A stretch of DNA of 64,000 nucleotides from Bolinopsis microptera (taxonomy: Eukaryota; Ctenophora; Tentaculata; Lobata; Bolinopsidae), in NCBI RefSeq assembly GCF_026151205.1, contig NC_087074.1, positions 7,181,226 through 7,245,225 of the forward strand, in the 5' to 3' direction. This document shows, piece after piece, positions 2,832 through 63,912 of this stretch (position 1 is the stretch's first letter; every line of letters starts with the position of its first letter). The notes under the pieces were generated by a model that worked only from the letters and a program-made list of their open reading frames with translations, had not been told where the DNA came from and made no database searches. A program made the position numbers and the translations under genes.

Positions 2832-5282
2832 TAAAGTAAAGTAAAGTAAAATTTATGACATCACATCATCACACATGTCTACAAACTATCATCGCACTGT
2901 GTGAAAAAATATATAATAAATATTTCCCCACCAACATTAATTAATTATCAAATACATTATTTAAAAAATATTTCATCAAAAACATTATCCTATTTTTAAA
3001 ACTTCCCAGTGGAATAAAGATTTATAAAACGCTTCTTTGCCACATAAGGATGGAACCAAAGATAATTGTTATGTTTCTCTTTATTACTGACATAACTGGC
3101 TCCCTCAATTCTTACTAAAACTTCATTAGAAACATTCCAAAAAAAGCAATCATTTGTAATACTTTTAGAAATCATATCTATCTTATATCCTTCTAATTTA
3201 ATTTTAAAACCTAAAACTGTCACAGAGTTCTTGACGTCCGGAGGGAGCTTGTTCCAATATGGAATAACTCGCTCCGGGAGAAAAGACTTCTGGATATTCT
3301 TGACCTTTGTCACACTTTTACTACATCTATTGGATGAAACCAGATTAAGACCTGATCTGCTTGGTCTGAACAAGTCTGAACCATAATCAGTCATAGCATT
3401 AATAACCTTAAAAGCTTCAATAAGGTCCCCACGTATTCGCCGCTCTGCCAGCGTTGTCAAATTGAGGATTTCCAGTCTACGGCTGTAAGGAAGAGTACCC
3501 ACCTCATCAATCAGACGGGTAAACCGCCTCTGGACGCTCTCCAGCTCCAAAACAGTCCCCCAACTTCCATGAGCCGCAGGTGGATTCCACAATTGGACAC
3601 AATACTCAAGATGAGGTCTTATTAAAGCTTTATATATAGCAATCATAACAACCTTTTCTCTAATAACTAAATTCCTTACAATCCAACAAATCATACGATT
3701 TGCCTTAGCGATACATGCTTTGATCTGTTCGTTCCAAAGCAGGGAGCTATGGGTAATAACCCCCAAATCTTTTTCCTGTGCAGATACTTCAAGTTCTATA
3801 CCATTTACCTTATAATTTAAATTAGGATTGTTGTTAAAATTAATGTGCACTACTTTGCACTTGGCAGGATTAAATTGTAAAAGCCAAATACTTTCCCAAA
3901 CTTCTAATTCTTCGATATCTTCAGCAACACTACCGTGGTTAGCTGCATTACCAATTAATTTAAGATCATCAGCAAATAACTTTATCTTATTTTTTACAAG
4001 GTCAGGCAAATCATTAATATACAGAATGAATAGGAGAGGGCCTAGAACTGACCCCTGAGGAACACCAGATAAAACATGTTTAACCTCGGACCATTGTCCT
4101 TCTACAGAAACCCTCATAGTCCTGTCTGTCAGAAAATCTTTAATAACATTTAAAACCTTTCCTTTGGCACCAAAGCCTTCCAATTTAGACAGAAGTCTAA
4201 AGTGGGGGACTGTGTCGAATGCCTTACTAAAATCAAAGTATAGAAGATCAACCGGGGCACCTTCATCTAAAATGTCAAGAATGTCATCAAATGTCTCTAA
4301 AAGATTAGATAAACACGATTTACCCTTAACAAATCCATGCTGATGCTTCGAAATTCGATGTTCTAAAAAATTTAATACATGTGCTCTCACCAACTTTTCA
4401 TACACTTTGCACAAAATACACGTTAATGAAACTGGTCTATAATTTAAGGGGTCCGATTTAATACCCTTTTTAAACAATGCTACAACAGATGCAGATTTCC
4501 ACACTGCAGGTAAAGATCCTGTATCTGAACACTTTTGAAATAATTTAGTCAATGCTTCAACAAAATTGTTGTCATAAGCTAGCGATTTCAACAACTTCGG
4601 ATGAACACCATCCGGACCAGAACTCTTAAAAATGTTAAGCTTTAAAAGTTGCTTTTTTATATCAGAACTGCTGACTTCCATATCATCAATATCATCAATA
4701 CTCTCATTGTCAGGTCTTAAATTCTCAGTTTTAGGGAGAGGGCCAGGTGGTTCACGCACAAAAACAGAGCTAAAGGCACTTGCGAGTACCTCAGCTGACT
4801 CAGTTGAACTATCTGTGCGTGTACCATCTCCTCTATCTAAAGAAACCACACTTGATTTAATTTGACGTTTATTTCGTAAATAAGAGTAAAAAGACTTACA
4901 ATTCTGCTTTAGATTAGATGTAATTTTCTTTTCATAGTTAACTTTAGCTTTAATTTCTGCTACTTCATAAGTATGTTGTTTGCTACTTGCATAACTAAAA
5001 TTAACATCAGATGGATTAATATCAAACTCAGCCCATGCTTTATCTTTATTCTTTCTCATTCGTTTAAGTGCAGATGTACTCCATGGCAACTTGACAGGTC
5101 TGTTGTCGAGATAAACCGAAGCAGTCGGAACAGCTGCAGCAACAGTCTCCAGTTTACCATGTAATTCAGCCCACATATCTTGAACATCATCGGTAGAACT
5201 ATAATCCCAGTCGATATTTTTCAAACTAAAATTTAATAACTCTTCAGAGGAAATCTTACCCTCATATTTTTTCTGGCGCTGG
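2832..5282 (-). mobile_element. 5'-truncated CR1-like non-LTR retrotransposon
   Basis: On the minus strand the element contains a long reverse transcriptase frame followed by a short 3' untranslated part, and it ends in repeats of TTTAC (2832-2850). The endonuclease expected upstream in a full CR1/Jockey element is absent. At about 5282 the reading frame meets a second sequence resembling this element's own 3' end, so the 5' side is cut by truncation or by a second copy. It inserted beside a CAGTGGCGTAACG motif (2814) that matches the end of the hAT-type MITE at 8235. Confidence 0.8.
2996..5224 (-). CDS. Reverse transcriptase of CR1-like LINE
   Basis: About 742 residues are uninterrupted. 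The frame stays open upstream of 5224 into KYEGKISSEELLNF, so no true start is visible. In order, the palm motifs are: SGPDGVHPKLL (about residue 202), YRPVSLT (about 262), the HQHGF block (about 294), FDFSKAFDTVPH as motif A with the first catalytic Asp (about 328), GVPQGSVLGPLL (about 387) and LFADDLKL as motif C with the catalytic FADD (about 414). The C-terminal blocks LEYCVQLWNP and RRIRGDLIEAFKVIN are typical of the CR1 group. It would copy element RNA into DNA at a nicked target in the nucleus. No stop or frameshift is seen, so it may be young, but without an endonuclease it cannot be autonomous. Confidence 0.88.
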   Translation of the reverse strand: MKNIDWDYSSTDDVQDMWAELHGKLETVAAAVPTASVYLDNRPVKLPWSTSALKRMRKNKDKAWAEFDINPSDVNFSYASSKQHTYEVAEIKAKVNYEKKITSNLKQNCKSFYSYLRNKRQIKSSVVSLDRGDGTRTDSSTESAEVLASAFSSVFVREPPGPLPKTENLRPDNESIDDIDDMEVSSSDIKKQLLKLNIFKSSGPDGVHPKLLKSLAYDNNFVEALTKLFQKCSDTGSLPAVWKSASVVALFKKGIKSDPLNYRPVSLTCILCKVYEKLVRAHVLNFLEHRISKHQHGFVKGKSCLSNLLETFDDILDILDEGAPVDLLYFDFSKAFDTVPHFRLLSKLEGFGAKGKVLNVIKDFLTDRTMRVSVEGQWSEVKHVLSGVPQGSVLGPLLFILYINDLPDLVKNKIKLFADDLKLIGNAANHGSVAEDIEELEVWESIWLLQFNPAKCKVVHINFNNNPNLNYKVNGIELEVSAQEKDLGVITHSSLLWNEQIKACIAKANRMICWIVRNLVIREKVVMIAIYKALIRPHLEYCVQLWNPPAAHGSWGTVLELESVQRRFTRLIDEVGTLPYSRRLEILNLTTLAERRIRGDLIEAFKVINAMTDYGSDLFRPSRSGLNLVSSNRCSKSVTKVKNIQKSFLPERVIPYWNKLPPDVKNSVTVLGFKIKLEGYKIDMISKSITNDCFFWNVSNEVLVRIEGASYVSNKEKHNNYLWFHPYVAKKRFINLYSTGKF

Positions 5283-5430: not shown

Positions 5431-6840
5431 TAGAAACACTAGTGCATGGTTTCAGGACATAACATTGTTGTGCCTGATATAGGAGAAACACATTTTTGTT
5501 GATTGTAGAATGTCAGGAAACAGCGATTAATTGATATATAATATCAAAAAACATATTATATATGTTCAAAACCATACGTGCTATTTTGTAGCCAAAGGAG
5601 CTAATTTCCTTATGAGAACCGCATTCCAAGCTTGTGCAATTTCATTTAGCTACACACAATTTATAGTCTTACTTCAAAGCTGTAGCTGTTTGGCCGACGT
5701 CCGTCATCCAACCAAACATCATCCACCAATACATATGAAAGTAAGAAATTAGTCCAAATACATGCAAACGTCGCTCAAGGGGCATTGAACAACAAAGCAC
5801 CACTTTTTATATTAGCAAATGGTGTTTTTTCACCATGAAGTAAAGTAATAAATCTGCTAAGTCAATTTTGAAGAAATTCGACAAATGTTGTCAAAGCGTT
5901 CGATTTTTATAGTTCGAGGTAAAACGTCTTTAAATGCGCGGCTCAATTTTTTTTCTTCCTTAATTTTGTTCAGTACCAGTTTTTGATGTAACAAATCTAC
6001 ATGAATTTTTGAAAGATTGAAATACATATTTAAACACATGTTTTTTGTTTTAAGTTTATGTATGTGGTATAAACATTTTTTCCTTTATATTTTTCAATTT
6101 AAACAATTTTTAATAATGCATTTTTTACATTTTGAACATTGGATATATTTTTAAAATCTTTTATAATCAAAATTCAATATTAGATTAAAGTTCATTTTGT
6201 AGCGCGATGCACTACTGGGTCGCGCCGCGCATCAAATAATTCTTCTCGCAACCTTAGGTAGATCGGCAAACTGCACCTCTGTGCCTCACCAAGCGGCGAA
6301 GGTTTGACATCGAGATAAGAATCAAAGTTCATTTAAAGTTTTTAATTCAAGTTTTCAACCGAAGTTTTCAATTGAATTTTTCAATTAAAGTTTTCAATTA
6401 AAGTTTCATTTAAATATAATAAACTTAACAGCCACGCTGAAAATACATAAAAGCGAAAATCAGAGGCGCGCCGCGCACATTCGCTCCATCATATATCCTA
6501 ATTCAAAAATCGAGCGCTTACTCAAAATTTCTCAGATTTGCACATTAGTGAGTTAGTAGCTTACTGAAGTTACTGCATGACGACAAACGATTCTACGGTG
6601 TCGTTTTCTTGATAAATGCAAATCAAACAATATTTGCACAAATTTCAAGCATCGCTGCTCAATCTGCCATCTATTGTTGTTTCCTGAGGTTTTGATATAT
6701 TTTTCATAATAGCATAAATAAAACTCAAGAAAACAACAATTTTTTCAAGAAAACAACAATTTTATTTAGTATCAGTTAAAGCAGACAAAAACATATTTTA
6801 TAAATATAACTAGCGCAAACTTTAGACCATATATCTTCTA
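5431..6840. other. Gene-free stretch with one GC-rich repeat block
   Basis: No exon is supported. At 6197-6320 a GC-rich block begins TGTAGCGCGATGCACTACTG and ends GGTTTGACATCGAG. It matches the GC-rich mini-element family seen at 32084, 32725 and 38942. A second GC patch (GCGCGCCGCGCAC) lies near 6466. Confidence 0.55.
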
Positions 6841-17278: not shown

Positions 17279-17425
17279 TCAGGCGCGCGACGTTTCAGGC
17301 GCGCGACGTTTCAGGCGCGCTACGTTTCAATTTCACTCTTAGGTGGGCACACCAGTGTTATACTAATTGTATTGACATACGTTGCATGCCACTTTTCGCG
17401 CGCGAAGCGCGCGCCGCCGAAGGCG
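17279..17425. repeat. GC-rich tandem and hairpin block
   Basis: Three copies of a 17-18-bp unit TTTCAGGCGCGCGACG are followed, about 80 bp on, by two adjacent GC hairpins (arms GCGCGC, and CCGCC with GGCGG). It is a sharp GC island in AT-rich sequence, like the other mini-element blocks of the window. Confidence 0.6.
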
Positions 17426-18435
17426 GAAAAATATTATCTCTGATATTGGGATACGAAACATGTATCAATAATTGTATTGCGCAAGCGATTTTCAATCGCG
17501 CGCCCTGAAAATCGAGTCTAAAAAATCTATCTTCTCCTACATCTTTTGAGCAATCACCCTAAACTTTCAGGATATGATCTAGGGATCATTCAGAAGAGAC
17601 CAATCGAGCCGAATTCTGAGATAGGCCTTAGAAACTTTTTTTATTCGATTTTGAAAATCTTGGAAAAATCGTCAAAAAATGAGGTCCAAGATCTGACCTT
17701 GGACCGGCGATAATTTCGGCTAGGAACAATATTTTTCCATCGGACCAAAAGCAGCTGATAGATATCTTTCCCCCTCTATCAGAAACAACTATAAAATCAA
17801 TTTTGAGAGAATTTTGATGAAGACCCCCGGCCCCCTTTAATAGTGATCACTGATCACCAAACGAATATATCGCTCTGGTAGTTCCTAAGGGGAAACATTT
17901 CAAGATTGTGGAAAGCAATTAGCAAACAAGCTCTGCGTCTAATTTTGTTTCTTCGATGGAATGAACCAAGAACGACGTTCACAACGATTGGCTTAACTGG
18001 TAATAAATCTGATGCGGATCGTCCTTGAGAGACAAATAGAACAACGCCCAATTCAATAAAACTGTTCCAATCATGAATGAATGACGTCATCCAGATAAAC
18101 ATTATTTATACGAATTAACTAGATTATTCTAATGGTCTAATATATAAATGAATAATTGAATAAACGGATAATATTCTTCTGTCCTGCCACTACGACGGTC
18201 GACGAATGGAAACTGACGGAACATTCGAATCATAATTACAAATTCATTAGTGATTATTATTGATGATTATAGTTCTAGTCTGGAATAATCGGACAATTCT
18301 TCCCACTTTCTATAATTCCCACAAATCAATCATGACTCAAGAGCTGATAGATAAGGTTACTAATTGGCAACTACTATTATACCCGTAGTAAAGATGATGA
18401 ATGATTGGCATAATTTATACTAATAATCGCAATAA
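17426..18435. other. Gene-free stretch
   Basis: No exon, RNA gene or clear mobile element is supported in this interval. Confidence 0.55.
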
Positions 18436-18689: not shown

Positions 18690-20925
18690 ACGAACGGTTT
18701 AATCAAGAAAACGGTAATAGATTTGGGACTGGTTTTTCGGTATAGTGCGGAAAAACTCTGACGAAGCCAAATGATGAAGGTTTTTTAAATCGGTCGGTGG
18801 CAAGTGGTTTAATTAATCATTTTGTGACCCAAATGTGATACCAAAGTGTCTCACTTACTCTCCCTCTCTCCCACTCTCGCTCTCTTTCCCTTTATAACAG
18901 ACTTGCTATGTAATTAGGTAATTTGGCAGGGGACCTCAAGATTGCCTATAAACTATAAAGTATTACTATTATAAAAAATAGTAAAATATAGATACGTGAG
19001 GGGCATTCAGAATTAAATTGCGGTGTGTTTGGACTGAGCGAGTTCATATTTTCGCACCGTTTTAACTACGAAAATGTAATGCGTTTTTTAGAATTTTTTA
19101 ATAAACTTTCAAATTGTTACACAAATACATTTTATTTCAAAGAAAATTCGCCGAATGACCTTACATGCCTTGACAAGTGACCGAGTGTAAACAAAATTAG
19201 GGACACCGAAACACCAGTTGACCAGTAAACTGGTCATAGCAATTACATATAATGGCGGGTTTATACTTTTGCATTTCAACTGCGATAGTGAAGTCCCGGC
19301 CGTAGGCACGGGCAGTGGTACACGCCGCCGCCGATTTTTTGCTCACGCCGAAGAATAAATCAGCGGCGGCGTGAAAGTTATATTTTGAGAATTTTGAAAA
19401 ATCTTCCATCGGACAAATTTAATTAATTAATTAAGAGAAATTCAAGAGAATTCAAATTAACCATTCACGTTAAAATAAATCAACCATAAACTGAAACTGG
19501 AAGCCAAAGCAGTATTTTGAGGCCCATCCCGTACAGAGACTGTATTTATGTTCGACTGAATCACAACTACAAGTGCCAAGGGGCCACGCCGCCGAACGCC
19601 TCCGCCGCAAGTTTTGGCCTCGCCTAGTGAACACACTAGTGTTCTACATAATTCCGGTGACGTAAATTTAACGGGTGATACTCGTAAAATATCTGTTCCA
19701 TATATTGGAACAGGACCGTCGACGAGTCCAACTCGGCGCGCGTCCTGGTAGGTTGTAAACCTACAAGTTTCATCTTGTAAACAATTTCTCCGGAGCCTTT
19801 GAAAGTTAGCCTCAACTTAACTTCTAATCCTCCAGACGGTATAGAAGACCGATGGTGTCTGTTATCTAATATCTTCCACTACTCCCGAAATTTCACCGCC
19901 CTGGCCAATATAGTAGTGACAGAGCTTGCTTACTTTTAATCATAATGGAACGTGTCCACAATCATTGTTAAAGCAATTCATGATCGAATGCTAGTGTTCA
20001 TTTGTTTGTCTGTTTGATTAATCATATTTATAACCTACTATATTGACAGTAAATCGCTAAAGTCATAATTAAGGCGGACGACGATTGTCGATTAACACAT
20101 ATTTATGACGACGATTAACACATGTTTATTGAAAGCTTCTACAAGTTAAACTATCGTATCACCTATATGTTTTTAACCCAACTCTGAACTCCATTCAGTC
20201 ATAATTAAGGAAAATATGGTGTTTTTTTCGAAAAACCACCGACTTTCGTACCATTTAAATATGTCTCGTAAGGTACTGTAAAACCATTAATTTGTGCCAA
20301 GAATCTATTTTCACGTGGAGGGGGTTATTTAATACATATAAGTTATAACTTCGTATAGTAAATACGAAATGTTTGTTAGCATGAGATTTCAAAATACATG
20401 TGTAAATCGTCTTCAGCTATTTTCACGAATTTTTTGGATCCAAAAAATGTATCATTTGACATTTCTTACTTATTTATCCATTAAAATAATTAAACCATTT
20501 AAATTCGAAACAAGAATTGCGCCCGTAGTTTCGTTTTGGCGGACGCTAGATTTCCATTCGCTATAACTTTAAGTATAAGCTCCAATCAGCTCACTTCTTA
20601 ATAATAATAATATTTATAAATTATGCATTAAATACGGAAAACACTTGAAATTCAATTCAATTGCCGTAGAACTTAACTTGTAATTGTATCTGTAATTCAA
20701 GGAAATGTAAGCAAAAGTAAACTACTCGTGTACACATCAGTACACTACGCGTGCCACGTACAAATTGGGCGTATAAGTATAACCTAATATTACACATTAC
20801 ATAGTATACATTAAAATACACTCGTGCCGCGCATTCATTGACCACAAGCTATCTATAGTCTATACATCACATCTCCGCAAGAAATCCTCGCGCGCGCGCG
20901 GCAGGTTGACATGGTAACGAACGAA
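18690..20925. other. Gene-free stretch with GC hairpin patch
   Basis: No exon is supported. Around 19320-19375 a GC-rich segment forms a hairpin between CACGCCGCCGCCGAT and ATCAGCGGCGGCGTG. The three-hairpin element lies at 19667-19764. Confidence 0.5.
19667..19764. repeat. Three-hairpin mini-element, copy 1
   Basis: The copy begins AACGGGTGATACTCGTAAAA and ends near AACCTAC. Three successive palindromes are visible: arms CTGTTCCA/TGGAACAG; an outer stem CAGGAC/GTCCTG capped by CGAGT-CCA-ACTCG; and GTAGGTT/AACCTAC. Copies at 31435 and 32131 share stems 2 and 3. Confidence 0.75.
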
Positions 20926-21003
20926 TTACCTGGGGACCTCAGGTTATAATGTTCATAAACGAATACAGATTCGGCGGAATGACAGGCTGAGCGCGGCCCA
21001 GTA
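20926..21003. mobile_element. 78-bp micro-MITE, family A copy 1
   Basis: The ends TTACCTGGGG and CCCAGTA are short inverted repeats. ACGAACGAA at 20917-20925 and 21004-21012 is an exact 9-bp target duplication. The body AATGACAGGCTGAGCGC is shared with 32951-33032 and 41996-42066. Confidence 0.88.
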
Positions 21004-21528
21004 ACGAACGAAAGGACGGAATGACAACATATTGGAACCTACCTACCTCGTTCTCCAAAATCCTCGTTTTTCTGCAAAAACGTCCATTCGTAACCTTTCA
21101 CTATTGCCTTTTTACAAAAAGGTGAACGGAAAAAATTGATGCCGTGAAATCGGCCCACTTTTAGAAATTTGCGGAAATGAGTGCCCGTGAAAATATCTGG
21201 TTTTACAGTGCAGAAAATAAATTTAAGTTTGATCTTATTAATACTAATAGTGAATGAATTAAAGTGTTTCAACTTTAAAAGTATTCGAGTCAATTGGTGT
21301 TGTTTTAATCTGAAAAGAACCCTTAAAAGTGATTAATAAGATACACTCCAGCGGTGCTATAAGTATGAGTATAACCTTGAACCTTGATGATAATTACTTT
21401 CAGACACGTACACTGTGTCGTGGATATATTGGATGAGAGTGTACTCATGTGAGCAACATCACAATCAAATAAGGTAAGAATCATATTTGTGTACGTTCTT
21501 CTGTTTGCTTGAAGTAAAACAGTGCCTA

Positions 21529-25046: not shown

Positions 25047-29473
<4,427 letters not shown>

Positions 29474-31034: not shown

Positions 31035-31278
31035 CACAGTACTGCCAAACATGGCCGTGCCTTTTATACATTCTATACTATTATAGCTTGTCATACGTTG
31101 TATGACCCGCCGCGCACGAGTGCGCGGCTCCCCCTGTATCGTAGAAAGTCAGAGGTATCACAGTACTGGCAAATATGGCCGTGCCTTTTATACATTCTAT
31201 ACTATTATACCTTGTCATACTGCATACGTTGTATGACCCGCCGCGCACGAGTGCGCGGCTCCCCCTGTATCGTAGAAA
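31035..31278 (+). repeat. Tandem duplication of about 115 bp
   Basis: Two near-identical copies run from ATCACAGTACTG to GGCTCCCCCTGTATCGTAGA. Each contains a small GC hairpin (CCGCGCAC/GTGCGCGG). The copies differ by a 7-bp indel. Confidence 0.85.
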
Positions 31279-31319
31279 CTCTACAGTATAGTGAAACGAC
31301 AATGGGGGGGGGTCACGAC

Positions 31320-31610
31320 GTGATACAAATTATACCCCCGTTACTGTTTTTTTTTCAGGCATTCAGGGCTCATTGGAAGTCGTTCAGCAGGTTTATTTTT
31401 AGTCCAAACATTCTAATTCGATGTCAAAGATGACATTAACGGGTGATAGTTACTCGTAAAATATTTGTTTCAAGACCGTCGACGAGTCCAACTCGGCGCG
31501 CGTCTTGGTAGGTTATAAACCTACAAAGAAGACAGGAATAAAAAATAGTTATGTGTAGGTTTTTAAGAAATTTGCGCAAAATCAAAAATACGCGCCAGCA
31601 TTGTTATACT
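31320..31610 (+). repeat. Dispersed repeat, copy with insertion
   Basis: It matches 39255-39425 from ATACCCCC through TTTTTCAGGCATT and GAAGTCGT to AAGAAATTTGCGCAAAAT, but it is split at 31435-31524 by the three-hairpin element. Neither copy shows coding. Confidence 0.8.
31435..31524. mobile_element. Three-hairpin mini-element, copy 2 (90 bp)
   Basis: Runs from ATTAACGGGTGATA to AACCTAC. It is bordered by AAAGATGAC (31426-31434) and AAAGAAGAC (31525-31533), a 9-bp target duplication with one mismatch. The related repeat at 39350 lacks the insert and shows the unoccupied site. Stem 2 is CAAGAC/GTCTTG here versus CAGGAC/GTCCTG in copy 1. Hairpin 1 has been lost. Confidence 0.85.
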
Positions 31611-32083
31611 TATAGTATTATAGTTATATGACTATGAGCCTTAATATAATGCGTGAAAAAACAGTCAAGGGGGTTAGGTATTATAGTATATCATGTTTAA
31701 AAGACACGGTCGTCGGTCATGCTTGGCACTGCACCAGCACTGTGATTTCGATATTACATGTCAGGATTCATCAGAAGTTCAGGAACCTAGCGATTATAAA
31801 ATTCAGATAACATTGCTGGTTAGTGGTTACTCTTCTGTGCCGTGTTCAGTATTTTCAAGTAAATTAACAAAACACAATCAAGCTGGCATGAATCAGAAAT
31901 CTGATAACTTATATTACATATTTTGATATCACATGTCAGGATTCACCAAAAGTTCAGAAGCGCAAACCTAGCAAGTATAAAAATTCAGATAACATTACTG
32001 ATTTATACTTTTTTTATGCTGTCATGTGTTCAGTATTTTCAAGTAAATTAGCAGGCCAACACAGTATGCCTCTTGTTTTGTAG

Positions 32084-32262
32084 CGCAATGCACTACTTCT
32101 GTAGATCGGCGAGATGCACCACCGAGATGCACCAACGGGTGATACTCGTAAAATATCTGTTCCATATATTGGACCGTCGACGAGTCCAACTCGGCGCACG
32201 TCCTGGTAGGTTGTAAACCTACAACACCGGGCCTCGCCGAGCTAGGAAGGATTGACATCGTG
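32084..32262. mobile_element. GC-rich mini-element containing three-hairpin copy 3
   Basis: Outer ends TTGTAGCGCAATGCACTAC and CTAGGAAGGATTGACATCG belong to the same family as 6197, 32725 and 38942. The flanks CCTCTTGTT and CCCCTTGTT (after ATCAAG) suggest a 9-bp duplication with one change. Three-hairpin copy 3 sits inside at 32131-32222. Confidence 0.7.
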
Positions 32263-32436
32263 AATCAAGCCCCTTGTTGTTCAAATTTACATTCCTCATT
32301 GTATTACTAGAATTCATTCCTTAAAACAAATTATCCAAAGATTGTTCCATATTCTTCCTCCGACCTTGCATGTTGCACCCTTTTTGTTCACCAAGCCATG
32401 TATTCTGTAATGAGTTTACCATTTACGCTTAATTGA

Positions 32437-32889: not shown

Positions 32890-33071
32890 TTGGAGGACTT
32901 CGCCGCTTCGACGCGCCGCGCGAACTAGCATTCTTGCTTCGCAGAGCAACTTACCTGAGGTCCCCAGGCTATTATGTTCATTAACATATATTAGAGATTA
33001 GGCGGAATGACAGGCTGAGCGCGGCCCAGTAAAGAGCAACGATCTCGATGGGTTGACATCGTCAATATCAA
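32890..33071. mobile_element. Family E mini-element interrupted by family A
   Basis: TTGGAGGACTTCGCC...TTCGCAGAGCAAC and AGAGCAACGATCTCGATGGG are the two halves of the element seen whole and inverted at 29748-29840. GTATCACCC at 32881-32889 and 33072-33080 is an exact 9-bp target duplication. Confidence 0.82.
32951..33032. mobile_element. 82-bp micro-MITE, family A copy 3
   Basis: The ends TTACCTGAGG and CCCAGTAA are flanked by AGAGCAAC at 32943-32950 and 33033-33040, an exact 8-bp duplication. It lies inside the family E element, and the unoccupied site is preserved at 29748-29840. Confidence 0.88.
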
Positions 33072-33391: not shown

Positions 33392-36300
33392 ATGGCTGCC
33401 GATACTCGGTCATCAGCCGATGTCTGCTCTATGATCGAGAAGTTCGAGCTTGTAACTGTAAACAATGTCCGAGAACAAAAATCTCAAACTGGAAGATTTC
33501 GCTACACACCCGCTGCCTTCCTAGCATATATATCACAGCGCCGACTAGCAGGCTTACTGATTGGTCCGATTTATGGACTTCTTCTCTACCTCTACATCAC
33601 CCATCTTATACTAGCAGGACTACCCTTCACAGCACCCGACAACTCTAGCTGCAGTCCCACCAACACCTCCTGTTGGACAGCAGGACTCAACCAGACTAAC
33701 ATTAACGAGAAGGCCCTGATGAGTAAGAGAACAAGTCACCTAGTGGGAGGCGGGGTTGGTGCAGTGGTGGGGTCCGGACTAGCCCTCACCAGTGTCTTCT
33801 CTACCAGGGTGAGATGCAACATGGTCCTCATTTTACCAAGTCTGCTGACAAAGCGTGGGAGAAGCTTCATGTTCAGCTTTGCACTGGCGCTAGTGATTGA
33901 GGGACCACTTTCCACGCTAGAACACAATGTTCAAGAGGTAGTCCGTTCGTTCACATGCATGTACCACGAGATGAAAAGTATGGCTCAAAGGTTCGTGGAA
34001 CAGTTTGTTAAAATCATGGAGCAGTTGAACAATATCCTTGTTATGGTGAACGATGCATCCAAAGCTTATCTTGCTCAGCTAGAGAAGGATATTGAGAATG
34101 CGACTGCAGAAACACGAGCAGATATTGAGGCTACGAAACGAGACGTGGAAAAAAAGATGAAAGAAATGAAGGAAGCAGCGGAAAGTATTTCAGATGTGCT
34201 GAATGCCCCAGGTGGTATTCTATCATCTGCCTGCGATGGTGTAACTGCGGCTGGAGGGGCTATTCTTAATGAGGTTGGAGGTTGGTTCTCTCGGCATAGG
34301 AAGAGGTCTTCCAGTTCCTGTGACCCACCAAACCTAGTGGATGTTCCAGATGTAGATATATCTGCGTTTGATGGGATCCCTTTGGATGCACTGAAAAACA
34401 TTGTCCAGGACCTAAATCCGAACTTAGACCTCATCAATATGGACTTGGATATGCTTGCAGCGAAGATCGATTCAAGCAGTATTCGAAGAATCCGTGAGAC
34501 ACTTCAAGGAATCTTCGTGCACGCTTTCGAATCTTCGAAAGTTATAGCGCGATGGGCTTCCAAGATTTTCTACATAAGCATTATCCTTATTATCTATGAT
34601 ACATATGCTTACGTACTCTCATTTAACAAGGATGATGCGTTCGATAACATGACCATCAACCACAGTTTTAAGGAGATCTGCGAGAAAGAGAAAAAGCCTA
34701 AGGTGACTCCGATGAGATGCTGGGAGCTTAATGAGAAGTACCATCTTGCAGTCAGCATGATTTTAAGCAAAAAGGAAACAATATCTTTGGTTAAGGAAAG
34801 TGTCCCAAGTCTCTGTGCCGCAATTGTCATCTCTGGCATCCTACTCACGGACTATCTCTTTGCTATTACTCTCGAGGTATTCAAAGAACATGCAAGTTTC
34901 GGAATCACATTCCCTGGAATGGAACAGGGGATTTCATTCGGAAGCACCCTGAAAGAAGCAGCAGGCCAGAGTCTCTCCAACACGATAAAGATCGATGGAT
35001 TCGACCTCTCCACGGACGAATGTTTGCCAAGCCCACAGAGGACGGAGACTTCTTCGATATGGCCTATATTCGCTATTATAATCACTGCATTACTTTCTTG
35101 TGTGATCGAAGCTTACTTCAGTCGTCTCAGGCCGATTATCTGCAACGCTTACTACCCCCAACGAGCTCAAGAGAGGGCCGTCTTTCTTCACAAGTAAGAG
35201 AATAACAAACTCTTTACATTACTGTATGTCCGACGTACACAATAATGTTAATATCAATAATGAGTCCTGCTTCAAATATACTATAATATACTTTGCATCT
35301 TTTTGTGAATAAAACTGCAATTTCTGCAAATTCTGGTTAAATTACTTTTCCCCCAGAAAAATAATGTCGGGAAGAAGAGCGAGGCAGCTGCAACTGGGAC
35401 TCGTTCTACACAGAGAGGTACATGTTATTCAAATTGAGTTTAGTTATGAAAACCAATCGTAATGTGATTAATATGATCTCAGAAAATAATGGATGATTTC
35501 TTCAGTATTTGGCCGCCAAAAATTTGGCGGCCAAATTCCAACATTTTCCCTCCAAATTTTTTGGAGGCCCAAATCAAAAATCCGTTCTCAAAATAAGGTG
35601 GAAATGCGTTTTTGAGTCGATTCCGAAAATTTCATGGAAAATTTTGAAAACTGATTGAGTTGTTACAATTTTAATGAAATCAATTCCGCGAATATCGCGA
35701 ACCAAGATACGGGCAATTTAGTTCATTTTTTGTGGTCTTTTCGCCTCAGTATCCACATTTAAACAGATATAAAGGGGTATAGGACGCACGGCGGTAGTTT
35801 CCAAAAAGGTTGGACGGTGCGGCGGATCACATGACACCCACTTTACTTTGGACAGTACGGCGGTACTACTACTACTAGAAACTGTACCTATAAGATAGAC
35901 CTAGCACTGCTAATATAACAAAATCGATTAGCTATAAAAAGTTCTATTTTCCTCTTTGTTACTTCGAAATTAAATTTAATTAAAATTAAATTGGATAGAG
36001 CTTAACATATACATTGTGATTACTAAGAGCAGTTCTTGTTCCTCTTTCTGGTTCGTATCAGATCGCGTCCGGTCTGCACAACGGGCTTTATGGATCTTGG
36101 ATCAAATGGTTTACAATTACTGACGATCAATGCCAACAAGCGTGTCACATATTTGCGATCACGCATGGGATCTGATCGACTCTATCAAGAGGCGTCTTCA
36201 AATAACTGTCTCCTGATCTCTACCAGATCAAGTCACTGTTCTCAGATAACTGAATCTCAATATAGGTTCAATCATGGACTTAGTAAAGAACTACACCCTC

Positions 36301-38905: not shown

Positions 38906-38939
38906 CTCAAAGTACAGTTGAAACTAATAGTAATTGTTA

Positions 38940-39005
38940 ATTGACGATGTCAATTCATGGCAGCTCGGCGCGGCACAGTAGCGCATCTCGCCGATCGCGC
39001 TACAA
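38940..39005. repeat. Short GC-rich mini-element
   Basis: TTGACGATGTCAATTCATGG runs to CGCCGATCGCGCTACAA. The flanks AGTAATTGT and AGTAATTGG suggest a 9-bp duplication with one change. Confidence 0.7.
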
Positions 39006-39169: not shown

Positions 39170-39435
39170 TTATATCTCAGTGCTCAGTGCTGGCAAGCAC
39201 GACCGCCGCCATTATACTCACTGTACTATTTACGCCTGGCCCTATACCATTAATATTATACCCCCTTTACTGTTTTTCAGGCATTATTAAGACTAATCGA
39301 AAGTCGTCCAGCAGGCATATTTTAAGTTCAAAACATTATAATTCAATGTCAAAGATGACGGGAATAAGAAATAGTTATGTGGAGGTTTTTAAGAAATTTG
39401 CGCAAAATACGCACCAGCACTGATATACATATATG
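39170..39435 (+). repeat. Dispersed repeat, uninterrupted copy
   Basis: Counterpart of 31320-31610 without the three-hairpin insert: GATGACGGGAATAAGAAATA reads straight through the insertion site. Confidence 0.8.
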
Positions 39436-41995: not shown

Positions 41996-42066
41996 TTACA
42001 TGGGGACTCCAGGCTATTATGTTCATAAAGATTTGGCGGAATGACAGGCTGAGCGCCGCCCAGTAA
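41996..42066. mobile_element. 71-bp micro-MITE, family A copy 4
   Basis: The ends TTACATGGGG and CCCAGTAA are flanked by GTCTTGAA at 41988-41995 and 42067-42074, an exact 8-bp duplication. The core GGCGGAATGACAGGCTGAGC is shared with copies 1 and 3. Confidence 0.88.
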
Positions 42067-43825: not shown

Positions 43826-43936
43826 TTGACCATTGTTAATGATCTGGCCCGGCGCGCGCTACTTCGTAGCACTTGCCGTCGAGAAGAAAGCGGCGCGCGC
43901 TACTTCGAAAAAATTTAGACGATTAACATCCGTCAA
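43826..43936. mobile_element. 111-bp mini-element, family B copy 2
   Basis: The ends TTGACCATTGTTAAT and TAACATCCGTCAA are flanked by ATAATACAG at 43817-43825 and 43937-43945, an exact 9-bp duplication. It lacks the internal duplication of copy 1 at 28428. Confidence 0.9.
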
Positions 43937-52923: not shown

Positions 52924-53791
52924 TTGGTAGATCACCGACCGGCTATAAGCCGGCTACTAACCGGCTATAAGCCGGCTTATAGCCGGCTACAATTTTTATA
53001 GCCGGCTATAAGCCGGCTTATAGCCGGTTAGTAGCCGCTTACAATTGTTGTTGAGCGACGGCTATTAGCCGGTTATAAGCCTGCTATTAGCCGTTTTGGT
53101 ATTAAAAGTGGTTATAAGCCGGCTATAAGCCGGTTATAAGATATTAACTCAACTACATCGTACTGAACGATAGTCAGGAGCCGGCTATAAGAAATTCAGT
53201 GAAAACGGCTATTAGCCGGTTATAAGCCGGCTATTAGCCGTTTAGGTATCGAAAGTGGTTATAAGCCGGTTATAAGCCGGCTATAAGCCGGCTATAAGCC
53301 GGTTATAAGATATTAACTCAGTTCAGTACGATGAAGTTAAGTTAATATCTTATAGCCGGCTTATAGCCGGCTTATAACCACTTTCGATACCTAAACGGCT
53401 AATAGCCGGCTTATAACCGGCTAATAGCCGTTTTCGCTGAATTTCTTATAGCCGGCTCCTGACTATCGTTCAGTACGATGAAGTTGAGTTAATATCTTAT
53501 AACCGGCTTATAGCCGGCTTATAGCCGGCTTATAACCACTTTCGATACCTAAACGGCTAATAGCCGGCTTATAACCGGCTAATAGCCGTTTTCACTGAAT
53601 TTCTTATAGCCGATACCTAAACGGCTAATAGCCGGCTTATAACCGGCTAATAGCCGTCGCTCAACAACAAATGTAAGCGGCTACTAACCGGCTATAAGCC
53701 GGCTTATAGCCGGCTATAAAAATTGTAGCCGGCTATAAGCCGGTTTATAGCCGGCTTATAACCGGCTTATAGCCGGTCGGTGATCTACCAA
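52924..53791. mobile_element. 868-bp palindromic element of GCCGGC/TATAA units
   Basis: The ends TTGGTAGATCACCGACCGGC and, inverted, GGTCGGTGATCTACCAA mark the element. Nearly the whole interior is one imperfect palindrome around about 53335, built from AGCCGGCTATA and TATAAGCCGGC units. Unique mirrored segments carry CGTACTGAACGATAGTCAGG and TCGAAAGTGG (inverted on the other side). Non-coding. Confidence 0.88.
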
Positions 53792-56900: not shown

Positions 56901-59900
56901 GTGCATGATGATTGATGATGACTGAATCAAGAATAAATTTCATATTCTGTTTCCATTTAATCCTTTCTGGCAAGTCAAACATGATCACATAAATAATGGT
57001 AAATTTACATCTATAAATATCACAGCTTTATGTCTCATTTGCATGTAACCATGTTCCGTTTCGTGTTTCTACTGTCCATTTTGCCATCTACCCTCTGCGA
57101 GTCAATCTTATCCCCACTTTGCAACGAAATGTTCAGGAATCTCGGCGAAAACTGCGTCAAAGAAGGACACATGATCAGAAAGATAAACAAAGCCTCCCAT
57201 TTCAGAGGTCAAGTTATTTATGACTTTATGAGCGGGTCCGAGATTGCACAACTGTTATTGAATGCTCAGCTGCCTCTCGACATCCCACATTATCTTGAGA
57301 CCGAGAAAATGAAACAGAAGGTGGACAGTGACATAAAATTTAAACTTGATCTACTTGCTTTCGTTGAAATAGCAGATGAACTAGAAAGCATCGCAAGAGA
57401 AACGACTGCAAAAATCAGCAAAACAGAGGAATGGTTGAAGAAAAAAGAACAATCCTACCTCCTGAAACTAACACAACTGATAAAAGAAATGTCAGGAAAA
57501 GAGAGCATGTTTACAACCCCCACTCCAGCCACCACATCCTTCCGACCCCTACCCTCATTGGAATTAGAGGCGAGCCGCTTTGGTCTGATCCTGACAAACG
57601 CGTGGTCCCTCAGCCCTCAATTAATAGGAACAGAAGTGTACGGTAAACAGGAGGAAAAGCAGGGGAGGTGCGCTGCTCAGTTCTGGGGGAATCGCGAAGG
57701 CAGGGAGTCGTTTGTACTGGTACAGAGGGCAAGGAACACGATGGAATTGTGGAGCAGAAAGAAGGACTACGAGGCTATTCAGATCCAATTTGATGATGGT
57801 AGCGACAGTAGCGACAGTAGCGTTACATTCGTTCTTGTGGTAGGTTTCCGACTTTGCTACAGTAAGTTGTGGAGATGGGTTGTCTATGCAGGGATGCAGT
57901 TTCACCACCAAGAAAACGGATGGTTGACGATGAGTTACAAGGAGATGGACCGATCTGATGTCACACTTGTAGACCCACTCGTAGGGGACGGATCTGAAAG
58001 CCAGGTTGTCGTTATATCCGCCCTTGGGAGCACAGCAAAGCCAACAGATTGCACTAATGACATCCTTGGGTCGGGGATTTACCGTAGATACAGTAATGGG
58101 ACCTGCAAAGGAATACCCATGTTCTCAAAAAGAGCGGCTAATGTAGAAAGTGCGTGTACTGATCTGATGTGGGAGGGAGCTAATCTGGATAACATGTGGG
58201 TCTCACTCCTCGAGGAAACTCGGTACAACAAATGTCTGCAAACAGTTATAACACCCCCTCCTTTCTTGCAAGTAGAAAAATAGGGTTATTCTATAGTCGT
58301 TATGAAATAAACGAACACATTTTGTAGGACTAATGACAATGAGTTTCTTAGAATTTTCACAATTTTCACAATTAAAGACCAAAAGCGCAGTTTAAAATCT
58401 ATCAGTTTCTTTTCTTACTCTCTATATGTGTTAATACGTAATAATAGATTGTAAATATATCGCATAATTCCCTTGTTCAATTAAAAATTTTCGCCAAATC
58501 AAAAAGATGTTTCAAACTAGTATATCAAATCTAAGCCGAGTATGTCTAGAGGAAGCAGCAAAAATATGTTTCGGACAGTAAAAATGGCGAGGACTTAAAA
58601 CATCCAAGACGAGGGTAATAATAACTTCGTGCAAACATTGAAGAGAACTTAAGATTTAAAACCGCAACTCACAGTGCGCTTTAATAAGAGAAGTGTTAGT
58701 TCCCTCTCTGATGGGTTCCCCGTAGTCACCGCCCATACAGTCTGGTAACTCAAGCTGGAACTTGTAGTCTCCAGAATTCCGGGGGAAGTAGTAGGGGAAC
58801 AGTTCTTGGTAAAACATCTGAGAGGAGGGAGGTGTTAGCAGAATGATATATAAACAGGGGCACATAATGAGGGAGGGGGGACTAGGTTAGTGGGCTGGGA
58901 AATAAAAGTGTCTCACCATATCTCGGCTACTTTCAAGTACAAAGCAGATCCTTCTGAACCGGTCGCCGTGTTTCTCCAAAAAACGCCTCGTTACCCCTGA
59001 TTAAGAGTTTTGTGATGATAGATAATTGTCTATAAACCGCCAATTCATGAATTTACAGGTCCTCAGTTAAAATATAGGAAACTAACTACACATTATCTTT
59101 TTTAAGCTAGATTTTGTATAGTAGGGTAGGTGAAAATTACCATGCGATGCGCGGCTTGAACGCGCGCACTAAATGACACTGGTTTAAGTTGTTTCAATAA
59201 CAAACGTTAATTAGGCGATCGCGTGTTACATGCTACGCATGAAAGATACATCCGGGATCAATTAGAACAAAACGTAAACATTGGATAATATTTTATCCGA
59301 AATATGCAGAGTATGTGATTTCCCAAAATCACCACACTTCCACATTTCAAGATGATTTAGAGCGAACATCTCACATTTTATGAGCGGTAAAAACTTAAGG
59401 TTACACATTACTGAAATGAGAAACACGATACTACACACATAAGGCAAATTAGATAAAGATAATGTTAGGCCTACATCATATATGACAAGCGATGTAAAGT
59501 ATGACTACAGGTAGTAACATAACACACACATGTGTATCCGCGCATTAATGTACAACAAACTGATCAGATGCACGGGTAGTAATCACGTGGCATTATAGCA
59601 ACAGGGTGTATTGCCTCGGTAACTATAGCAACTACTCACTGAGTGCACTGCCTCAGTAACTATAGCAACTACTCACTAAGTGCACTGCCTCAGTAACTAT
59701 AGCAACTACTCACTGAGTGCACTGCCTCAGTAACTATAGTAACTACTCACTGAGTGCACTGCCTCGGTAACTATAGCAACTACTCACTGAGTGCACTGCC
59801 TCAGTAACTATAGTAACTACTCACTGAGTACACTGCCTCGGTAACTATAGCAACTACTCACTGAGTGCACTGCCTCAGTAACTATAGCAACTACTCACTG

Positions 59901-61510: not shown

Positions 61511-62116
61511 AATAATTATAATACTTTTATGAGTGATATTTATATTACTTTATAAAGTATTTGTTTAGTATGTACCGTATGGGAAGTAGTGAGTTTCTGA
61601 AGAGCGCAGTGTCCCCCGTTACACAGCCTGTAATTGGAGATTATTAAATTAACAACTAACAACCTGTAAATTTGTAAAGTGTAAACATTAAGTAAACAAT
61701 ACACCTCGTTGTAACCTGAACTAAGCGTGAAGTGTGGAAAAGTTTATCTGGAGAGAGAGATTCTCAATACTTACTTGGATAAATTGAAATCCAATTGTAA
61801 TTATTTCTGAATTGCTTTATTATGTTGCATTATGTAGGTTTGGCAGGTATCGCTTTTAGACAAGAATATCCAGTAGAATCCGTCTCCACTGAGTCTATTT
61901 AGAAACAATCAGAAGTTTGAATGAAAGAAGCAGCAAATCATAAAACTAAATGATAATACACGACTCAATTAGACAGTTTCAAGTACGTCCTCCAATCAGA
62001 CCAAATTGAAATTATTCGTTGCAAGATTCAGTGCTAGCCTTTTTTTTCAAATCAACAACCATACTATTTATCCTTGTATATCATTTGTGTTGGTAATTTG
62101 CAAGCAAGCATCTGTC

Positions 62117-63478
62117 ATGGGTTTATCTAGAATGATGGTGGTTACCAGACTCCTGCTAGTAACTATGGTAACTACAGTACATTGTGTACTCTCCTCCCAG
62201 AGTGCCAGCTCTTATCATAAAACATATGGGACTATTGAGACTACAACATGGATGTTTGATTTGAGTGGTGTAGTAACCAATTCAGTTAATGAACCATTTG
62301 TAGTTGGGGTCTTCGTTCCAATCTTCGTCAATGATGACAGTAATCAATCGATGGAAGGTTCTGATAAAGCCAGCTTGATGACTCTAACAACAGTAAATAC
62401 ATTGGTCTCCATCTGTTGTATTGTCCTCAGTATGACCATAGCATACTTTAGGTTTGTTAAATCACGTGCCACCAAACTTGGCCTAATACAAACCCTCTAT
62501 CTCCGGAATGGAATAGCTGACTTCTTCGTAGGATTAGGAGTTCTTCTTCAGAGCCCCATTTTGTATCTACTGATCTCAAAAGGCGATGAAATATCTGATA
62601 TGGTAGTGCCTGCCTACATCATCTATTTTTTGACCGCCATAGCTTTAAAGATGAGCGTCTTCATGAACTGCATCTTGGGAATAGTCCGGTGCATTAACAT
62701 TGCTCAACCTTTCTACCTGATCAAAAGGAAATCCCTCACTGTGTGCACCCTTGTGTACATGTTGATTTGGATGCTCATTGTTGGGATTGACCTGTGGCAG
62801 TTTGCTGAAAAAAGGGGGACGAAAAATCAAATACTTATGGTGAAGACGATGATTATGAAGGGTCAGCCAGGATTTGGGTTGGTTCTCCTGACCATGGAGA
62901 AGGATGATAATGGTCCAAGCTATCTCGCCTACCAACTTGGCAACCTGGTTCAGTTCATTTTACCCACTGCTCTGCCTGCATTGCTTTGTTTTGTGTTGAT
63001 GATAGTGCAGCTGTGTTCACTGCATAAAACACGTGCTCGCCGTGCATTGAATCACCTTAATGCGGCGGGGCAGTCAAATGTAGTAGATACTGTTTTAAAG
63101 GCCAGTCTGACCATTTTCCTATTGACCAGCATCTACGTGATCACATCAGCAGTGTCTATAATAACATGGTTGATAGCTGATGGACAAAAAGGTTACCTTG
63201 GCTCACAGGCCAACTACGAAGTCTTGCTAAAAAATCAACAAACAGCATTGCCATGGAGTGATTTGAGTGCGATATACTTCTCCCTGTCGACCTGTGCACT
63301 GATTTGTTCCACACTCACCCCTCTCACCCTTCTACTGAGGGGTACTGGGGACACATTTGCCGCTGCCAGGCACCTTCTTACCGGAACATTTTCCACTTTA
63401 TCATATAGTATGTCAGGTACAATCAGATCAGTAGGTAAATTTGTAAATCGAAGAAGAGAAGAAGAGACAGACTTGTGA
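62117..63478 (+). CDS. Rhodopsin-like G protein-coupled receptor, single exon
   Basis: The open frame begins at 62006, but the ATG at 62117 gives a good signal peptide (MMVVTRLLLVTMVTTVHC) and is preferred; about 453 residues to TGA. A short glycosylatable ectodomain follows (NQSMEG). Seven spans: TLVSICCIVLSMTIAYF; LRNGIADFFVGLGVLL (the N and AD of TM2); IALKMSVFMNCILGIVR with CINIAQPFYLI after TM3, in place of DRY; VCTLVYMLIWMLIVGI; LVQFILPTALPALLCFVLMI; ASLTIFLLTSIYVITSAVSI; IYFSLSTCALICSTLTPLTL, where STLTPLTLL replaces NPxxY. It would signal through G proteins at the plasma membrane; the ligand is unknown. The unusual TM3 and TM7 motifs suggest a lineage-specific expansion. The stop lies inside the first unit of a tandem array. 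Confidence 0.82.
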   Translation: MGLSRMMVVTRLLLVTMVTTVHCVLSSQSASSYHKTYGTIETTTWMFDLSGVVTNSVNEPFVVGVFVPIFVNDDSNQSMEGSDKASLMTLTTVNTLVSICCIVLSMTIAYFRFVKSRATKLGLIQTLYLRNGIADFFVGLGVLLQSPILYLLISKGDEISDMVVPAYIIYFLTAIALKMSVFMNCILGIVRCINIAQPFYLIKRKSLTVCTLVYMLIWMLIVGIDLWQFAEKRGTKNQILMVKTMIMKGQPGFGLVLLTMEKDDNGPSYLAYQLGNLVQFILPTALPALLCFVLMIVQLCSLHKTRARRALNHLNAAGQSNVVDTVLKASLTIFLLTSIYVITSAVSIITWLIADGQKGYLGSQANYEVLLKNQQTALPWSDLSAIYFSLSTCALICSTLTPLTLLLRGTGDTFAAARHLLTGTFSTLSYSMSGTIRSVGKFVNRRREEETDL

Positions 63479-63912
63479 GAGACAGACTTGAGAAGAGAAA
63501 GACTTGAGAAGAGGCAGACTTGTGAGAGACAGACTTGAGAAGAGACAGACTTGAGAAGAGGCAGACTTGAGAAGAGACAGACTGGCGAAGAGACAGACTT
63601 GAGAAGAGACAGACTGGTGAAGAGACAGACTTGAGAAGAGACAGACTGGAGAAGAGGCAGACTTGAGAAGAGACAGACTTGAGAAGAGACAGACTTGTGA
63701 GAGACAGACTTGAGAAGAGACAGACTTGAGAAGAGACAGACTTGAGAAGAGACAGACTTGAGAGGCAGACTTGAGAGGCAGACTTGTGAGAGACAGACTT
63801 GAGAAGAGACAGACTTGTGAGAGACAGACTTGAGAAGAGACAGACTTGTGAGAGGCAGACTTGTGAAAGACAGACTTGAGAGGCAGACTTGTGAGAGACA
63901 GACTTGTGAGGC
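63460..63912 (+). repeat. Minisatellite starting at the receptor stop codon
   Basis: About 25 units of the type GAGACAGACTTGAGAA or GAGACAGACTTGTGAG. The first unit encodes the receptor C-terminus (EETDL) and its TGA; the rest is 3' flank. A long minus-strand Ser/Leu frame here is an artefact. Confidence 0.93.

Follow-up and report, generated by a model that had tools for sequence, protein, structure and literature searches.

The window analysed here, a stretch of 64,000 nucleotides from the genome of the ctenophore Bolinopsis microptera, contains several open reading frames and simple repeats in addition to the short elements that are the subject of this work:

2996-5224, minus strand: open frame of 742 codons for a LINE-type reverse transcriptase (RVT_1, E 1.3e-30).
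27396-27952: extended CT/GA simple repeat, translatable in several frames as SL and RE repeats.
33392-35197, plus strand: one 601-codon open reading frame, encoding a DC-STAMP domain.
53088-53628 and 63465-63867: short tandem repeats at high density, of TAGCCGGC-like and AGACAGAC-like units.
57030-58283, plus strand: open frame of 417 codons with no Pfam match.
62006-63478, plus strand: open frame of 490 codons with no Pfam match, resembling by eye a multi-pass membrane protein, possibly a receptor.

The focal element, at 31436-31526, belongs to a family of short elements designated F1. Its parts, the other F1 copies of the window, and a related vacant site are located as follows:

31436..31526, plus strand: focal F1 copy, 91 bp, with TT...AA ends, a short form lacking the second hairpin (from the sequence and the family profile).
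31428..31435, plus strand: left target duplication of the focal copy, AGATGACA, with one mismatch to the right one.
31527..31534, plus strand: right target duplication of the focal copy, AGAAGACA.
31438..31457, plus strand: left-end hairpin of the focal copy, AACGGGTGATAGTTACTCGT, with extra bases at the tip (sequence and predicted fold).
31471..31507, plus strand: stem 2 of the focal copy, CAAGAC...GTCTTG, the double-changed form (sequence, fold, and genome-wide counts).
31481-31497, plus strand: near-palindrome GACGAGTCCAACTCGGC, enclosed by stem 2.
31508..31524, plus strand: right-end hairpin of the focal copy, GTAGGTT-ATA-AACCTAC, followed by AA (sequence and predicted fold).
19668..19766, plus strand: F1 copy of the longest form (99 bp), with an extra hairpin, CTGTTCC-ATATATT-GGAACAG.
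28317..28581, minus strand: F1 copy with an 8-bp duplication, CCGATTTA, outside it and an F7 element (28428-28565) nested within it.
32134..32224, plus strand: F1 copy lacking its first TT, inserted in an F3 element (32078-32268).
39353..39360, plus strand: related vacant site carrying the unduplicated 8-mer AGATGACG.

The first-pass annotation of this DNA reported three copies, at 19667, 31435, and 32131, sharing a chain of palindromes. All three were recovered, with boundaries shifted slightly to 19668-19766, 31436-31526, and 32134-32224, and the minus-strand copy at 28317-28581, absent from that annotation, is a fourth. The layout had been described as a chain of three hairpins, but the longest F1 form, represented in the window by the copy at 19668 (full sequence TTAACGGGTGATACTCGTAAAATATCTGTTCCATATATTGGAACAGGACCGTCGACGAGTCCAACTCGGCGCGCGTCCTGGTAGGTTGTAAACCTACAA), contains four possible hairpins. 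When the 19667 and 32131 copies are folded in silico, pairing with flanking bases takes the place of the left hairpin. RNA folding gave z-scores of -4.05 and -3.94 for two of the three copies (0 of 200 shuffles each), and a z-score of -1.18 for the 32131 copy (27 of 200 shuffles).

The focal copy is flanked by an imperfect 8-bp target duplication with one mismatch (AGATGACA / AGAAGACA) when its boundaries are placed at the TT...AA ends found throughout the family. A duplication had been claimed before and does exist, but at 8 bp rather than 9 bp; the 9-bp version (AAAGATGAC/AAAGAAGAC) also contains one mismatch and relies on other boundaries. Likewise, a vacant site had been placed at 39350, and the related site AGATGACG lies at 39353-39360. 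No target duplication was detected around the copy at 19668..19766. The view that F1 is a mobile element is backed by target duplications, a related vacant site, nested insertions, and precise ends.

Exact matching across the assembly returned 1531 occurrences of a 24-bp core of F1, 1972 of its 5' 23-mer, and 2095 of its 3' 20-mer, with no match for any of the reversed-pattern controls. The copy number of F1 in the genome is well over a thousand. Most copies measure about 85-99 bp and are non-coding. The detailed comparisons below were made on the window and on 98 partly overlapping loci, which together provided 87 full F1 copies.

The stem 2 change described between the first two copies was verified, as both arms differ together (CAGGAC/GTCCTG versus CAAGAC/GTCTTG). 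Counted genome-wide by exact matching in one fixed context, the pair concerned was G-C in 304 copies, A-T in 26, G.T in 7, and A.C in 4. Among the 87 full copies, a set in which the query used over-represents the A-T form, the pair could be read in 74 and was G-C in 58, A-T in 7, T.C in 3, G.T in 2, A.C in 2, and T.T and C.C in one copy each. A single change probably gave rise to the 26 A-T copies, which would then form one inherited subfamily, so that the case for selection on a fold is weak when stem 2 is taken alone. The 3' hairpin of the first two copies differs only in its loop, as previously noted (GTAGGTT-GTA-AACCTAC versus GTAGGTT-ATA-AACCTAC). With a search pattern that fixed most of this hairpin, it was classified in 74 of the 87 full copies: 52 carried the GTA loop, 17 the ATA loop, and 5 one of four other forms, 3 of these with a change in the stem.

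The outer parts of F1 are conserved, and the middle is different in most copies. When 30 loci were picked by the left 23-mer alone, a recognisable right part was present in 19; over its 50 bp, which were free to vary in this sample up to the recognition limit of 8 differences, these copies departed from the consensus by 1.16 substitutions and 0.63 indels on average, and 17 of the 19 had distinct middles. In 30 loci picked by the core, the left part was found in 22, of which 17 had distinct middles. The choice of loci by exact 23- or 24-mers inflates the apparent constancy of the constant parts in both samples. The centre also appears variable by eye among the copies listed for the other families.

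When TT...AA stretches flanked by 8-bp direct repeats were sought, F1 proved to belong to a group of at least nine families, of which F1 to F9 were defined, each by its two ends. They share a common plan, namely a short element with TT...AA ends and 8- or 9-bp target duplications, although this rule is partly built in, since TT...AA with a duplication was the rule of selection. Full copies numbered 87, 31, 42, 39, 15, 32, 26, 6, and 18 for F1 to F9, respectively (296 in total, including the overlap between the F3 and F4 lists). Several families have related ends. Among 8218 repeat-flanked stretches of the loci, TT...AA led the pairs of terminal dinucleotides with 199, an excess due in part to the fetching of these loci with F1 queries; in the window, where tandem repeats dominate such a count, TT...AA was not among the 25 commonest pairs. 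Matches to the profiles of the nine families make up 1921 of the 64,000 bases of the window, where the following elements were delimited in addition to the F1 copies:

6197..6325, plus strand: F3/F4-type element with TT...AA ends and the 8-bp duplication AGTTCATT.
17372..17468, minus strand: F8 element with the 8-bp duplication TAATTGTA.
20926..21004, minus strand: F6 element with the 8-bp duplication CGAACGAA.
31212..31328, minus strand: F2 element with the 8-bp duplication ATTATACC.
32951..33032, minus strand: F6 element nested in an F5 element, with the 8-bp duplication AGAGCAAC.
38937..39005, minus strand: F4-type element with the 8-bp duplication AGTAATTG.
41996..42066, minus strand: F6 element with the 8-bp duplication GTCTTGAA.
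43826..43936, plus strand: F7 element with the duplication TAATACAG, possibly one base longer.

Duplications were scored with the boundaries fixed at TT and AA and with lengths of 4-15 bp tried. Under these settings, the 87 F1 copies showed a duplication of 8 bp in 35 cases, 9 bp in 13, and 5 bp in one, and none was detected in 38. F2 showed only 8-bp duplications (18 of 31 copies), as did F8 (4 of 6), and F9 only 9-bp ones (9 of 18); the remaining families were mixed between 8 and 9 bp, with 4 bp in one F6 copy. Variable boundaries, which would have spoken against the mobile-element reading, are thus not the rule, as fixed ends yielded 8 or 9 bp in every duplicated copy but the 5-bp and the 4-bp one; no target duplication was detected in 133 of the 296 copies listed for the nine families, F3 and F4 overlapping. 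After removal of duplicate entries, including that overlap, 144 distinct duplicated insertions remained, of which 80 have an 8-bp and 64 a 9-bp duplication. When 83 F1 copies were scanned less strictly, the ends being allowed to shift by up to 7 bases, a setting that favours chance extension of duplications, the lengths were 5, 6, 7, 8, 9, and 10 bp in 2, 2, 3, 20, 29, and 5 copies, respectively, and 22 copies had none.

The bases next to the insertion sites show an apparent preference. A pyrimidine was found three bases before the duplication in 84% of the 8-bp class (n = 80) and 81% of the 9-bp class (n = 64), and a purine three bases after it in 70% of both classes, these percentages being plain frequencies. 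A preference that is symmetric around the cut would be expected of a dimeric integrase or transposase. Of the 144 duplicated insertions, 34 sit inside another element of this kind, as judged by a 14-mer test spanning the rejoined site. No 3' tail was seen on the elements. In five F1 copies (L004, L012, L025, L046, and L076), an extra TACAA-like unit lies between the 3' end and the duplication.

Directly after TT, most ends read as a 7-base arm, a 3-base loop, and a second 7-base arm, 17 bases in all. In this fixed register, at least 5 of the 7 positions form Watson-Crick pairs in 15 of the 18 consensus ends, against a background of 2.5% of the 6319 TT sites of the window, and at least 6 in 9 of the 18, against 0.5% of the same sites. 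One F5 end has just 2 of 7 pairs, and F9 falls outside the register, neither of its ends forming any of the 7 pairs; they read instead as 5-bp arms around a 4-base loop. The terminal inverted repeats of the families amount to TT/AA plus a weak similarity of the ends: beyond TT, 5-11 of the 17 positions (mean 7.8) are the same at both ends of a family, compared with a mean of 5.9 for ends from different families. For 12 of the 18 ends, the reverse complement of the end itself is a better match than the other end of the family.

Covariation was analyzed on an alignment of the 16 ends of F1-F8, the F9 pair being left out for its other hairpin geometry and G.U being scored as a pair. In this alignment, 85.7% of the cells were paired versus 50.7% after shuffling (sd 3.5; 0 of 500), 42 cells were doubly changed versus 13.9 (sd 3.1; 0 of 500), and the covariation score was 0.889 versus 0.241 (sd 0.047; 0 of 500), whereas slid registers left only 25-44% of the cells paired. 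Two measures were unexceptional, namely the number of pairs with a double change (7 versus 6.0 shuffled; 135 of 500) and that of further pair types (19 versus 15.9; 49 of 500). With F9 included, 90 of the 126 possible pairs formed across the 18 ends, against 44.2 (sd 5.6) in re-dealt data, the maximum of 10,000 re-deals being 68. The arms of the end palindromes thus pair across F1-F8 beyond chance, although the ends are related to one another and these counts are not independent events. Selection on, or repair through, a folded RNA or DNA, which had been proposed from stem 2, is therefore better supported between families, where the arms co-vary far above both the shuffled and the slid controls.

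Within families, distinct changes per site amounted to 12.3 in stems and 13.0 in loops; stems change as much as loops, and hence drift after insertion dominates at this scale. Eight doubly changed arms were counted within families, 5 of them F3/F4 cross-listings; the others, each in one copy, were AACGGGT/ACTCGTA to AGCGGGT/ACTCGCA in F1, ACCTGGG/CCCAGGC to AGCTGGG/CCCAGCC in F6, and GACCATT/AATGATC to AACCATT/AATGATT in F7. A strict scan for two end palindromes, each with 6 or 7 of the 7 pairs formed, and an exact duplication found a single 79-bp element in the window versus 1 in a displaced-flank control, and 11 versus 5 when one mismatch was allowed. The strict scan of the loci returned five pairs, spanning 183-470 bp.

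We consider that F1 and its sister families are most probably non-autonomous, MITE-like DNA transposons mobilised in trans by a transposase of the DDE type, a reading to which we assign a probability of about 0.7. Staggered cuts made by the transposase 8 or 9 bp apart would generate the target duplications. The end palindromes may serve as the grip of the transposase, whether they form a symmetric dimer site or are extruded as hairpins, and under such a grip the arms would have to stay matched while their letters drift. The middle may often be re-made during amplification, through breakage and fold-back repair of its own palindrome. The elements resemble MITEs in being short, non-coding, and present in high copy number, with precise ends, target duplications of set length, and nested insertions, but they differ from them in that their terminal inverted repeats are just weak, as given above by the mean of 7.8 of 17 positions. 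The coral CMITEs offer another animal group of MITE families with unusual conservation; the authors of PMC2872659 link them to piggyBac-like transposons and describe matching inverted repeats and a conserved interior, whereas here most ends are palindromic and the interior is the variable part.

Three kinds of candidate transposase are encoded in the genome. Merlin (IS1595-like; DDE_Tnp_IS1595) transposases account for 58 genome matches, several of them in stop-free open frames of 318-337 codons; MULE transposases account for 88, and the hAT dimer domain for at least 150, with 150 of 365 candidates scored, such counts being lower bounds for large families. An assignment to the Merlin superfamily, as a special case of the MITE-like reading in which palindromic TT ends would be a peculiarity of this lineage, fits the duplication length, as Merlin elements make duplications of 8 or 9 bp (PMC8101967); however, a conserved terminal GG is described for them in PMC8101967, whereas all nine families start with TT. 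In addition, the 381 bases beyond one Merlin frame (L099) hold tandem repeats and no such end, although this stretch may stop short of the end of the element. We therefore regard this assignment as unlikely, though not negligible. Mobilization by MULE or hAT transposases, another special case, appears about equally doubtful. MULE duplications measure 8-10 bp and hAT duplications 8 bp, so that 64 of the 144 duplications, being 9 bp long, speak against hAT for the elements as a whole, and only F2 and F8 would fit on their own. The three transposases are candidates, none of them tied to the ends described here, and the strict DNA scan of the window and the loci, which would miss weaker ends, detected no autonomous copy with such ends. 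The array downstream of the Merlin frame in L099 is made up of TTAATGTTGTC-like repeats.

Other modes of dispersal were also weighed. If the elements were retroposed small RNAs, SINE-like, a folded transcript would be inserted by target-primed reverse transcription, with a LINE enzyme reading the 3' hairpin and the CTACAA-like repeats. The stable RNA fold of two of the three copies and the LINE reverse transcriptase frame of the window are consistent with this, and the extra 3' TACAA-like units of five copies would also fit slippage during reverse transcription. However, SINEs have a 3' tail and duplications of variable length, whereas no tail was seen here, the duplications are of 8 or 9 bp with fixed ends, and lengths of 5-10 bp appear just when the ends may move. 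Moreover, both ends follow the same plan, TT and a palindrome read inwards, which describes an element without polarity, and no similar end was seen by eye in about 1 kb downstream of the LINE frame. This origin is thus very improbable. Slightly less credit still is given to single-strand transposition of the HUH type (IS200/IS605 or REP-like), in which the hairpins would be read directly. Some bacterial REP/IS200-IS605 ends start with GTAG, as do some of the ends here after TT; hairpins act there as recognition units, and the terminal hairpins described above keep their shape over their letters. To our knowledge, however, IS200/IS605-type and REP-like elements make no target duplication, in contrast to the 8-9 bp found here, in an animal nuclear genome. 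Helitrons, which have TC...CTRR ends and are not known to make a target duplication, do not fit the TT...AA ends and the 8-9 bp duplications. A dispersed structured non-coding RNA gene or ribozyme would agree with the folding z-scores near -4 in two of three copies and with the doubly changed stem 2, but we hold it to be the least credible of these origins, as the window gave 0 Rfam matches at the gathering threshold and the end plan and duplications are common to nine families. In six loci, two Rfam matches were obtained, both below threshold.

A further alternative concerns the palindromes and not the mobility of the elements: the arms may have been kept matched by fold-back copying, that is, conversion of one arm by the other, with no selection on the palindrome. 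Arm-to-arm conversion would yield identical covariation, and the shuffle controls cannot separate it from selection; some variants of the middle also hold, by eye, short local copies and fold-back-like insertions. On the other hand, copies with a wobble (7) or a mismatch (4) in stem 2 exist, indicating that the two changes need not be simultaneous. We view this explanation as a possible one that deserves somewhat more weight than either transposase assignment, while still not favoring it.

Returning to the MITE-like reading, recognition of a DNA transposon usually depends on the sequence of its inverted repeats. In this one genome, eight families have ends that mostly keep their palindromic symmetry while the letters change, which represents a natural experiment on recognition by a transposase. 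If one enzyme moves all families, it would recognise symmetry or shape. A bolder version can be formulated, in which the ends are read by shape: the transposase would recognise a 7-3-7 palindrome, or extruded hairpin, after TT, the letters would drift freely as long as the arms match, one enzyme would mobilise many families, and each round would open and re-seal the central hairpin, thereby re-writing the middle. We put this forward as a speculative and rather unlikely scenario. Tiny elements with precise ends and a changeable middle also make it possible to gauge how frequently small transposons are rebuilt as they amplify, and they add to the mobile-element record of ctenophores, a lineage close to the base of the animal tree. 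The titles and the starts of abstracts of open-access papers revealed no account of these elements, and no printed copy of six element sequence terms was found in such papers.

Some loci contain derived or composite forms. The loci L057 and L062 were both considered as 5'-truncated LINE-like copies, a reading that was rejected for L062 when a nested F5 insertion was found there. The longer chimeras L082/L092 and L069/L077 were compared at the DNA level: in L082 and L092, the left half of F1 is joined to about 100 bases of another sequence, making a chimeric element type, and these two are 98.5% identical over 137 bp. In L057, the bases just before the right half of F1 (ACCTACCAGGAC) are complementary to the 3' arm of that half and lengthen the palindrome.
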